A DNA stretch of 42,473 bases from SAR202 cluster bacterium Io17-Chloro-G2 (GTDB taxonomy: Bacteria > Chloroflexota > Dehalococcoidia > Lucifugimonadales > UBA3495), in the NCBI GenBank assembly GCA_002816875.1, contig MUCP01000044.1:1-42473 (forward strand), written 5' to 3'. Below are positions 16,340 through 25,528 of the stretch, in pieces (position 1 is the first letter of the stretch; the number at the start of each line of letters is the position of its first letter). A program made the translations under genes and the position numbers. Below the pieces are notes generated by a model. The model searched no databases and was not told where the DNA came from. It was given only the letters and a program-made list of their open reading frames with translations.

Positions 16340-16750
16340 TTACGCAGCCGGTTTGAAATACGGGATGGACACCTGCTGGTTGGCCTGGACGAAGGTGACC
16401 TCCACGGCCATGCCTATCTTCACTTCCTTGGGGTCGCACTCGATGATGTTGGTAAACATCTTGACGCCCTCCTCCAGTTCCACCAATGCCAACACGTACG
16501 GGATCTCTTCTTCAAAACCAGGCGTGCGGTTCTGACGGGTTTCGGTGAAGGTCCAAACGGTCCCTCTGCCGCTGGCGGTCACCCACTGGATATCTTCGCA
16601 CCAACAGTTGGCGCAAATCCCCCTGGGATAGAACTGATACTCCTGGCAGCTGCCGCATCTCTGAATTAACAGGTTCCCCTGTCGGCAGGCGTCCCAAAAG
16701 GGTTTGGTTTCGCCCGAAATCGTGGGCAGGGGCTTCTTCCATTCGGGCAT
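16340..16750 (-). CDS. DUF35 zinc-ribbon/OB-fold protein, partner of the adjacent thiolase
   Basis: 136 residues. The N-terminal helix FWDACRQGNLLIQRC leads into a rubredoxin-like zinc ribbon with Cys in CGSC and CANCWC. An OB-fold follows (GRGTVWTFTETRQ, VPYVLALVELEEGVKMFTNI). This is the DUF35/ChsH2 type of acyl-CoA-associated protein. In steroid side-chain degradation a DUF35 domain forms a complex with the thiolase-like aldolase Ltp2; in other cases it pairs with thiolases or HMG-CoA synthase. Its ATG lies three bases after the thiolase stop, so the two are translationally coupled, supporting a 1:1 complex. Confidence 0.88.
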   Translation of the reverse strand: MPEWKKPLPTISGETKPFWDACRQGNLLIQRCGSCQEYQFYPRGICANCWCEDIQWVTASGRGTVWTFTETRQNRTPGFEEEIPYVLALVELEEGVKMFTNIIECDPKEVKIGMAVEVTFVQANQQVSIPYFKPAA

Positions 16751-16753
16751 TAT

Positions 16754-17938
16754 CTAATCTTTCCCCAAGATAACGGTGCCGCCGCTGTGGCGTGATCCCA
16801 GCGCGCCTCCGGTGCCGTGGCACAACGCCACCTGGCAATCGGGCACCTGGCGGGGTGTGCCTTCAAACTGGCCCCTGAGCTGGCGAGTGGCTTCTAGGAG
16901 CAGGAAGATGCCCCTCATTCCCGGGTGGTTGGAAGACAGGCCGCCGCCGTCGGTGTTTATGGGAAGTTCGCCGCCGACTTGGAGCCGGCCTCCCGACACG
17001 AAGTCTCCGCCCTCACCCTTTTTGCAAAACCCCAGGTCTTCCAGGGTTTCCAGCACGGTGATGGTGAACGAGTCGTAGATCATAGCCATGTCTATGTCGT
17101 CTTGCGTTACCCCCGCCATGGCGAAGGCCGGTTCATGGCTTTGCTTGGCAGCGATGAATTGCAGGTCCCGCTTGCCGGCGCCCTGATGGGCCACTGCCTC
17201 ACCCGCGCCCAGCACCCACACCGGGTCGTGGCGGCAGTTGCGCGCCATCTCCGCCGATGCCACCACCACCGCGCCGCCGCCGTCGGTTATGACGCAGCAG
17301 TCGGGAAGATGCAGCGGCGTGGATATGATCCGGCTATTCACCACGTCCTGCACGGTGATGGGGTCCCTAAACAACGCCTCTGGGTTCATGGAGGCGTGTT
17401 TCCGCATTGCGACGGCCACCTCGGCCAGTTGCTCCGAGGTGGTCCCGTAAAGGTGCATATGCCGTTGGGCGATCATGGCGTACAAGCCCACGGTGGTTAA
17501 GCCATACAGCTCTTCAAAGCTATCGGGAGAGGGGTCCAGCCTGGGATGGCCAAACCTGGCTACCCCGCCGGTGCCCACGGATATTCCTCCCGAGCGGGCC
17601 AGGCTGCTGTAGGTAATGACAGCACAGTTGATCCGGCCGGCCGCGATGGCGTTGAGCGCGTGGGAAAGGTGGAACTCGAAGGAGCCGCCACCCACGGTGG
17701 TATTGTCCACCATCTTGGGGTACATATTCAGGTAGTCCGCTAGGTTCAGCCCGCTGTTGCGGATGTTCCCGGCGGTTAGCAGGCCGTCCACGTCGTCCTT
17801 GGTCAGGCCGGCATCCTCCACGGCTTTGATGACGCTCTCGCCCTGGATCTGCAGCTCGCTTTTGTCGGGAGCGTAGCGCGTGACATGCTCGTGGATGCCA
17901 ACAATGGCCGCCGCCTTTGTCAGATCGACCGTAGACAT
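16754..17938 (-). CDS. SCP2-type thiolase-like protein lacking the nucleophilic cysteine (Ltp2-like)
   Basis: 394 residues from ATG 17938, with GGAGG about ten bases upstream; a GTG at 17956 lies on that ribosome site. It has the thiolase fold, but the segment carrying the active CxS/CAS Cys in true thiolases reads TTVGGGSFEFHLSHAL, with no Cys. The signature MIYDSFTITVLETLEDLGFC is typical of the SCP-x/Ltp branch, and NTDGGGLSSNHPGMRG keeps the His of the GHP motif. A thiolase without nucleophile but paired with DUF35 is the pattern of Ltp2, a retro-aldolase that cleaves CoA-linked steroid side chains. That activity is an inference; the substrate here is unknown. Middle gene of a three-gene reverse operon. 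Confidence 0.87.
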   Translation of the reverse strand: MSTVDLTKAAAIVGIHEHVTRYAPDKSELQIQGESVIKAVEDAGLTKDDVDGLLTAGNIRNSGLNLADYLNMYPKMVDNTTVGGGSFEFHLSHALNAIAAGRINCAVITYSSLARSGGISVGTGGVARFGHPRLDPSPDSFEELYGLTTVGLYAMIAQRHMHLYGTTSEQLAEVAVAMRKHASMNPEALFRDPITVQDVVNSRIISTPLHLPDCCVITDGGGAVVVASAEMARNCRHDPVWVLGAGEAVAHQGAGKRDLQFIAAKQSHEPAFAMAGVTQDDIDMAMIYDSFTITVLETLEDLGFCKKGEGGDFVSGGRLQVGGELPINTDGGGLSSNHPGMRGIFLLLEATRQLRGQFEGTPRQVPDCQVALCHGTGGALGSRHSGGTVILGKD

Positions 17939-17973
17939 GGATCTAGCTCCTCCCACGGGTTTGCCTCACCTCT

Positions 17974-24436: not shown

Positions 24437-24874
24437 TTGGCTTCCGAAACCGGCCAACCCTACCTGAAATACGCTCTTTTTTGCAAAGAAACCGAGGAAG
24501 AACCCGGCGGCCAACTGGTGCTGAAAGACCTGGTGGACCTGGTTCGGCTGCCGCCTCCCGCCACCGAATCTGATCCCGGCCAACCGGTCCTGGCCGAGGT
24601 CGACCTCAACCTGGTCTTCTGCATCGGCGGTGCATCGCCAGGGCCACACTACCTTCTGGTAGCCATCAAGGCGCCGGGTATACCCCTGGAACCACCGCCT
24701 CCCCAGCAGATAGATTGGGAGGAGGGGATACTTTTCCAGCGCTGGATCAAGGTTTTTCGCATCCCGGTGCAGCGGGAGGGCAACCACGTAGCCGCAATCC
24801 TTTTGGACGGAATGCCTCTGGGGGAAGCAAGCTTTCTGGTCCAGTTTCATGAAGACGCCGCCCCGCAGGTCTAA
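24437..24874 (+). CDS. DUF6941-like protein
   Basis: 145 residues. A stop codon at 24425-24427 limits the frame, so TTG 24437 is the only likely initiator; GGAGG lies 13 bases upstream. The opening LKYALFCKETEEEPGGQLVLKDLVDLV resembles the start of DUF6941 proteins, which read roughly as an alphabet of short beta strands after an ALFC-D-x-x-R-E pattern. The remainder alternates strands (AEVDLNLVFCIGG, HYLLVAIKAPG) with a Pro-rich loop (PLEPPPPQQIDWEEG) and ends in EASFLVQFHE. It is cytoplasmic. No function is established for the family. Confidence 0.6.
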   Translation: MASETGQPYLKYALFCKETEEEPGGQLVLKDLVDLVRLPPPATESDPGQPVLAEVDLNLVFCIGGASPGPHYLLVAIKAPGIPLEPPPPQQIDWEEGILFQRWIKVFRIPVQREGNHVAAILLDGMPLGEASFLVQFHEDAAPQV

Positions 24875-24904: not shown

Positions 24905-24982
24905 TTCCGTTCGTGGTGTCCGCCTGAGGCGGATCGAACCATCCGCCTCAGGCGGACCCTTCGACATGCTCATGGCGGACGG
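24905..24982. repeat. Palindromic repeat with a 16-bp CCGCCTGAGGCGG-type hairpin
   Basis: Outer words TTCCGTTCGTGGTG and GGCGGACGG match the other copies, but the inner hairpin is different. GTCCGCCTGAGGCGGA (24918-24933) pairs perfectly with 24942-24957 across an eight-base loop TCGAACCA. CCCTTCGACATGCTCA follows. So the same frame carries an exchanged hairpin. Confidence 0.75.
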
Positions 24983-25009: not shown

Positions 25010-25038
25010 TTGAACCCGCCGAGCCTGTTGTCTATAAT
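25010..25038 (+). promoter_or_regulatory. Promoter of the tandem desulforedoxin-like genes
   Basis: -35 TTGAAC (25010-25015), a 17-base spacer and -10 TATAAT (25033-25038). The start near 25045 leaves about 48 bases before the first small gene. Confidence 0.65.
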
Positions 25039-25092
25039 AATTTTGCGATCATCTCACCCTTATAGCTATACGTGAATCAGGGGGCCGTCCAA

Positions 25093-25212
25093 TTGGCTAA
25101 CCAAACGGGTAAACGCTATATCTGCGCGAAATGCGGTTCGGAGTTCATCGTCACCCGGGGCGGCGACGGGGCCATACAGTGCTGCCAGCAACCGATGGAG
25201 CTCAAAACATAG
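25093..25212 (+). CDS. Desulforedoxin-like mini-protein, first of a tandem pair
   Basis: 39 residues from TTG 25093, with AGGGGG eight bases upstream. This start makes it align residue for residue with its neighbour (MANQTGKRYIC against MANDLGKRYIC). GTG 25072 would add seven residues. Four Cys are arranged CX2C-X15-CC (C11, C14, C30, C31), the exact spacing of desulforedoxin, the tiny protein that binds Fe(Cys)4 as a homodimer. The domain also occurs at the N-terminus of desulfoferrodoxin (superoxide reductase). The metal could be Fe or Zn. The role, electron carrier or structural metal protein, is not decided. It is smaller than most gene finders accept. Confidence 0.75.
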   Translation: MANQTGKRYICAKCGSEFIVTRGGDGAIQCCQQPMELKT

Positions 25213-25290
25213 CAGGTTGCCGGTTGCCAGCTTCAATGCCTCAGTAGTCAAGTTAGAAAAACCAGCCTAGACATTCCGGAGGACGTTTTC

Positions 25291-25434
25291 ATGGCCAACG
25301 ACCTGGGAAAACGATACATCTGCCCCCATTGCGGCAGCAACGTGTTGTGCACCAAGGGGGGAGAGGGAGAGATCCAGTGTTGCGACACCGAGATGGAGTT
25401 GCAAGCGCCCCGCAAGCTTCCATCTTCGGACTAA
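25291..25434 (+). CDS. Desulforedoxin-like mini-protein, second of a tandem pair
   Basis: 47 residues from ATG 25291, with GGAGG nine bases upstream. It reads KRYICPHCGSNVLCTKGGEG and then EIQCCDTEMEL. The same CX2C-X15-CC pattern (C11, C14, C30, C31) is present, plus an extra Cys at 20. A short tail (QAPRKLPSSD) extends past its partner. The 78-base gap from the first copy has its own ribosome site, so both can be made from one mRNA. The pair is a recent-looking tandem duplication, and hetero- as well as homodimers are possible. Its stop codon lies inside a 14-base tandem repeat. Confidence 0.8.
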   Translation: MANDLGKRYICPHCGSNVLCTKGGEGEIQCCDTEMELQAPRKLPSSD

Positions 25435-25480
25435 CCCCTTCGGACTAACGGCTTCGGATTAACGGCTTCTGATCACCGGC
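25425..25480. repeat. Four tandem 14-base repeats
   Basis: Units at 25425, 25439, 25453 and 25467: TTCGGACTAACCCC, TTCGGACTAACGGC, TTCGGATTAACGGC and TTCTGATCACCGGC. The first overlaps the stop codon of the second desulforedoxin-like gene, and each of the first three contains a TAA. Similarity falls with distance from the gene, as expected from slippage expansion. Confidence 0.8.
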
Positions 25481-25528
25481 TTCGTGTCAATAATCACGCC
25501 CTGATTCCACCAATGGCTCCGCATCCCC

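Follow-up and report, generated by a model that had tools for sequence, protein, structure and literature searches.

A conserved tandem pair of desulforedoxin-fold small proteins of Dehalococcoidia and its link to one clade of acyl-CoA ligases

The desulforedoxin of Desulfovibrio gigas (PDB 1dxg), a homodimer, and the N-terminal domain of desulfoferrodoxin (PF06397) are the described proteins closest to the products of two small adjacent genes, A and B, which we analyzed in a contig of SAR202 cluster bacterium Io17-Chloro-G2 (MUCP01000044.1, 42,473 nucleotides; this whole stretch of DNA is hereafter called the window). Fold, sequence ancestry and the CX2C-X15-CC cysteine spacing are common to all of them, and the desulforedoxin homodimer offers an analogy for the pairing of A with B. 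Unlike desulforedoxin, however, A and B belong to two paralogous families that occur in tandem or fused and often without metal ligands, B adds an LPSSD tail and an extra cysteine (Cys20), and the genes are linked to an acyl-CoA ligase and not to superoxide reductase. Loss of cysteine ligands has an earlier case in the 'Atypical-SOR' superoxide reductases, which have a degenerate desulforedoxin domain (SORGOdb, PMC3116461), whereas A and B lack a superoxide reductase domain and lose their ligands recurrently within a free-standing conserved family. MbtH-like proteins are likewise small and encoded in the cluster of an adenylate-forming enzyme; they favour solubility and are able to bind their adenylation domain in a stable complex (PMC7539972). 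Homologues of A and B lie beside an adenylate-forming enzyme in 12 of 13 partly related plasmid contexts, as MbtH-like proteins do in peptide synthetase clusters, but the analogy is one of role only: the fold of A and B is desulforedoxin-like, their partner is a stand-alone acyl-CoA ligase, and the MbtH family was absent from the Pfam matches of the window and of the fused forms. The amino-group carriers LysW and ArgW offer another analogy, as small proteins with Zn-binding cysteines and a conserved acidic C-terminal residue, which in LysW is the Glu of an EDWGE motif (PMC10433800). By contrast, the tail of B reads LPSSD without the EDWGE motif, the metal site appears dispensable and the partner enzyme is of another superfamily. 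No family model or paper describing the A/B family, and no assigned name or function, was found in the databases and open literature searched, and a search of openly licensed papers gave none on desulforedoxin in Chloroflexi or SAR202. A and B are a variant of the desulforedoxin kind with a probable new role.

A preliminary description, made from the letters of the window alone, had proposed these two genes as a tandem pair of desulforedoxin-type proteins that share one promoter and have separate ribosome-binding sites, and each of these signals was located (Table 1). Gene A encodes LANQTGKRYICAKCGSEFIVTRGGDGAIQCCQQPMELKT and gene B, 78 nt downstream, encodes MANDLGKRYICPHCGSNVLCTKGGEGEIQCCDTEMELQAPRKLPSSD. 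The two proteins both show the proposed cysteine spacing and, as described, can be aligned from residue 1, with 56% identity over 39 aa. An alternative in-frame start of A, the GTG at 25072, would give a protein of 46 aa; cross-genome conservation begins at the TTG and not at this upstream GTG, and TTG is the commonest start of A, found at the same place in 48 of 92 tandem loci. Near-consensus promoters precede A or the fused gene described below in 75 of 106 distinct loci across the class, where the mean best score is 9.43 of 12, against 5.65 in shuffled sequences, indicating that the promoter before A is not a chance match. Between the promoter and a 145-aa gene upstream lies an inverted repeat, tccgcctgaggcgga...tccgcctcaggcgga (window about 24921-24958), possibly a terminator or a small repeat element, and imperfect repeats of about 14 nt (cttcggactaac / cttcggattaac; about 25424-25485) run downstream from the stop codon of B.

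Table 1. Coordinates of the A/B locus in the window.
Feature	Position	Strand	Description
Gene A	25093..25212, including stop	+	TTG start; 39 aa; desulforedoxin-fold half with full Cys4 motif CX2C-X15-CC; PF06397 31.5 bits
Gene B	25291..25434	+	ATG start; 47 aa; desulforedoxin-fold half with Cys4 motif, extra Cys20 and C-terminal tail
Sigma-70-type promoter	25010..25038	+	TTGAAC (25010-25015), 17 nt, TATAAT (25033-25038); read from the sequence
Ribosome-binding site of A, GGGGG	25080..25084	+	Read from the sequence
Ribosome-binding site of B, GGAGG	25278..25282	+	Read from the sequence; SD-like site before B in 89 of 92 tandem loci
Codon of extra Cys20 of B	25348..25350	+	Cys20 in 101 of 112 distinct 47-aa B proteins; Val in 4 B proteins read of genome G065
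Codons of C-terminal LPSSD tail of B	25417..25431	+	PSSD in all B proteins of the first whole-protein search; LPSSD or LPASD in plasmid homologues

Conservation of the pair in related genomes, which the preliminary description had suggested examining, was extensive. A homology search of 59 genomes (the window's own and its relatives) gave a match in 43, mostly as two adjacent matches, and some 30 genera of the window's family and order carry the tandem. A Ka/Ks near one, named beforehand as the sign of a spurious pair, was not seen: between the window and its nearest relative pN/pS was about 0.2 (A, 0.14/0.63; B, 0.11/0.58; synonymous sites near saturation), and A and B are under purifying selection. 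Since the tandem is conserved in about 30 genera and pN/pS is low, chance could be excluded; the analysis thus confirmed that A and B are genuine genes, conserved across the class Dehalococcoidia. The two form distinct orthologous families, A ending in ..PMELK and B having Cys20 and ending in PRKLPSSD. Class-wide, 230 of 294 genomes had a match, some of these being desulforedoxins of the ordinary kind that lack the tail, for example in the Dehalococcoides-like family f44; outside the class, B was found in 6 genomes of a phylum sample. One record titled Dehalococcoides mccartyi (L146) has the pair with the tail, in contrast to the searched genomes of the Dehalococcoides-like kind, and is probably a misnamed assembly.

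A search with the desulforedoxin family profile, also suggested beforehand, placed both proteins above the gathering score of 23 of PF06397 (Desulfoferrod_N), A with 31.5 bits and B with 23.9 bits. Neither reached the NCBIfam cut-off of 36.05 bits for TIGR00319 (desulf_FeS4; A 21.1, B 14.9), and both scored below the cut-off of TIGR00320. The AlphaFold2 model of B (pLDDT 90.9) is predicted to be a desulforedoxin fold, its best PDB match being 1dxg (rmsd 0.7 over 36 columns; TM-score 0.92 by target length). Several families have, in place of the tandem, a single gene of 83-100 aa that corresponds to A plus B, in which most or all of the metal cysteines are usually gone while the fold motif and tail are retained. 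The model of one such Cys-poor natural fusion (L064; pLDDT 94.1, pTM 0.82) matches 1dxg in its C half, with an rmsd of 1.5 over 36, despite having no metal site; searched with Foldseek as a whole chain, the fused model gave a weak result (best E 2.7), so that the desulforedoxin match comes from the C half only. An alignment combining fused, A and B rows set A against the B half, and folding was done without it. The Cys-less and fused forms have no Pfam or NCBIfam name, and some Cys-less forms lack a PF06397 match. The natural A-B fusions, together with the homodimeric state of desulforedoxin, suggest that A and B function as a single unit.

All four metal ligands are present in 61 of 112 distinct 47-aa B proteins, one or more being lost in the other 51, and intermediates occur in which A has its cysteines and B does not, or in which a fusion keeps part of the set. 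Loss of ligands with retention of the fold points to a metal site that is structural and dispensable, as far as these sequences indicate. Cys20 is likewise frequent (101 of 112); it is replaced in one class genome (G065) and in fusions, and a role as catalytic thiol was rejected. The 112 proteins were selected by a pattern requiring a PS(S/A)D tail, so the constancy of the tail among them is partly built in, but every B read from the first set, obtained by whole-protein search, ends in PSSD, and the plasmid homologues, obtained with whole-protein queries, end in LPSSD or LPASD. In the L064 model the last residues have lower confidence, as for a flexible tail. A C-terminus that is conserved beyond the fold and modelled with low confidence suggests a docking peptide.

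It would be in keeping with the cysteine motif and PF06397 matches of the window's proteins, and with the Cys4 sites retained in many relatives, if A and B were FeS4 desulforedoxins passing electrons in a pathway in which the usual partner has been replaced. We regard this as improbable, because 51 of the 112 B proteins and most fusions have lost ligands without losing the fold motif and tail, because neighbour genes differ among families, and because the superoxide reductase domain is missing. PF01880 had no match in the window's own genome, an assembly of 1.56 Mb that is 56% complete, or in its 58 relatives, in agreement with the proposal that the pair is free-standing with no such enzyme next to it, and class-wide it was anti-correlated with B (odds ratio 0.22); a superoxide reductase partnership was therefore rejected. 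Oxygen respiration was also discarded as an explanation: COX1 correlated more weakly with B (odds ratio 5.6) and was present in all genomes of the order in the class sample, with and without B. The term desulforedoxin-type thus holds for sequence homology and predicted fold, but A and B are not simply two copies of the desulforedoxin redox protein, given their distinct orthologous families, the tail and Cys20 of B, the loss of ligands and the association with an acyl-CoA ligase instead of redox enzymes.

That association emerged outside the window. In Dehalococcoidia the genes around the pair vary between families, suggesting that the pair works in trans. The 145-aa protein encoded upstream on the same strand (24437-24874, +), which has no Pfam match, accompanies the pair at 16 loci, all in the window's own family, and was not found near it outside that family, and an operon with the window's neighbours was rejected on this ground. 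With B as query, a fused homologue was retrieved from Rhodococcus plasmids, and the fused protein in turn retrieved 18 records from Rhodococcus, Sphingobium, Sphingomonas, Streptomyces and Mycobacterium, labelled 'hypothetical protein' on the annotated plasmids. In 12 of 13 annotated megaplasmid contexts, which are partly related plasmids and not 13 independent events, and counted without a null of operon composition, the fused gene adjoins a class I adenylate-forming (AMP-binding) acyl-CoA ligase on the same strand, in either order and with gaps of 2-60 bp; the sole exception (L195) has no ligase neighbour. These 12 ligases show 45-78% mutual identity and score under every NCBIfam equivalog cut-off shown, and they are surrounded by genes for CoA transferases, acyl-CoA dehydrogenases, thiolases and enoyl-CoA hydratases. 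Ligases of this clade also have tandem pairs of the Cys type next to them in other Chloroflexota, as in G065 (four contigs read) and in a further locus that runs ligase-A-B (L138), and in two loci labelled Myxococcota by the tree tool (L136 and L141) a lone B is followed by an enoyl-CoA hydratase and then by the ligase. In a maximum-likelihood tree the 35 linked ligases grouped as one clade (support 98/95) to the exclusion of 10 next-best paralogues. A viral or phage origin of the pair was rejected, no relative having been found in viral contigs or phages.

In genomes that carry the pair, a ligase-profile search mostly showed a single stand-out match of about 400-457 bits, the next best usually being far lower; the Dehalococcoides-like genomes had no such match. 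In the order to which the window belongs, with the window's family left aside, 24 genomes had both B and the ligase, 2 had B only, none had the ligase only and 18 had neither (p 1.8e-10, uncorrected for phylogeny). Class-wide the corresponding numbers were 165, 38, 18 and 73 (odds ratio 17.6), a comparison uncorrected for shared ancestry in which the ligase is under-detected, since only five candidates per genome were scored; 'B only' here means B without a strong ligase hit, and class-wide B was assigned partly by E-value and family. The window's own genome had no ligase match, which its 56% completeness can explain, and a genome of the same genus (G001) had a ligase match at a contig edge and no B match by single-sequence search. 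The link between A/B and the ligase is well supported, and in those Dehalococcoidia in which the two are not adjacent (all except G065) it is based on co-occurrence. Were the link limited to the plasmid and Myxococcota branch, the pair might instead be a housekeeping zinc ribbon that attaches to an abundant complex such as RNA polymerase or the ribosome. Such a protein would suit the strong conserved promoter, the near class-wide presence and the weak similarity to profiles of RNA polymerase subunit P and of ribosomal zinc ribbons; these profile scores lie far under the cut-offs, however, and the joint absence of pair and ligase from 18 genomes of the order is not what one expects of a core component, so we give this explanation little credence.

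Taking together the homology, the fold prediction, the natural fusions, the repeated ligand loss, the adjacency to ligases in other phyla and the co-occurrence in the window's order, we lean towards the reading that A and B are a desulforedoxin-fold heterodimer serving as accessory subunit of one acyl-CoA ligase clade. The heterodimer would bind the class I adenylate-forming ligase by docking its C-terminal LP(S/A)(S/A)D tail onto the enzyme, its Cys4 site would be structural and dispensable, and binding may activate or stabilise the ligase. The same small Cys-rich domain with an invariant acidic C-terminus beside an acyl-activating enzyme also recalls LysW, and the tail does lie outside the folded core in a region of lower model confidence. 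A and B could accordingly be acyl or amino carriers, with the ligase-activated carboxylate ending on the small protein, likely at the C-terminal Asp, as on the Glu of LysW. We consider this unlikely, if less so than an electron-transfer or zinc-ribbon role: LysX is not a class I adenylate-forming enzyme, no enzyme for a bound intermediate is linked except enoyl-CoA hydratase, and, with the tail serines varying (LPSSD, LPSAD, LPASD) and Cys20 replaced in several lineages, the terminal Asp is the only constant side chain for attachment. Among the mechanisms of activating, stabilising, regulating or carrying, we would rank the accessory subunit first, the carrier second and redox third.

More broadly, and more tentatively, we propose that a two-part, desulforedoxin-derived subunit able to do without metal is required by a distinct ligase clade of Dehalococcoidia, actinobacteria, sphingomonads and Myxococcota, that it works via a short peptide at its C-terminus, and that it may be a protein-bound carrier system. 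If the accessory-subunit reading is right, one clade of the stand-alone acyl-CoA ligases, enzymes thought to be helper-free, would have a protein partner of its own, comparable to the MbtH-like proteins of peptide synthetases. A function would also be assigned to a family whose halves have fewer than 50 residues each and which is present nearly throughout Dehalococcoidia, SAR202-type marine bacteria included, and a metalloprotein fold would have been reused as a metal-free docking module. Homologues occur in cultured, tractable organisms suited to testing this, namely Rhodococcus, Mycobacterium and Sphingobium.

The surroundings of the ligase in Dehalococcoidia were also examined. Two enoyl-CoA hydratase genes precede it in most loci read, and the ligase-adjacent hydratase is 44-56% identical to those of L136, L138 and L141. 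In 7 loci (L230-L235, L237) two genes for GroES-like and GroEL-like proteins form a pair on the opposite strand, upstream of the ligase and its hydratases. One class genome, G065 (L246-L249, L151), shows an expansion, with about seven A/B pairs and 19 ligase-like matches. In the window itself, at 16340-17956 (-), an OB-fold/DUF35-like protein is encoded beside a thiolase-like lipid-transfer protein, as judged by eye, and the same couple is annotated in the plasmid ligase clusters.
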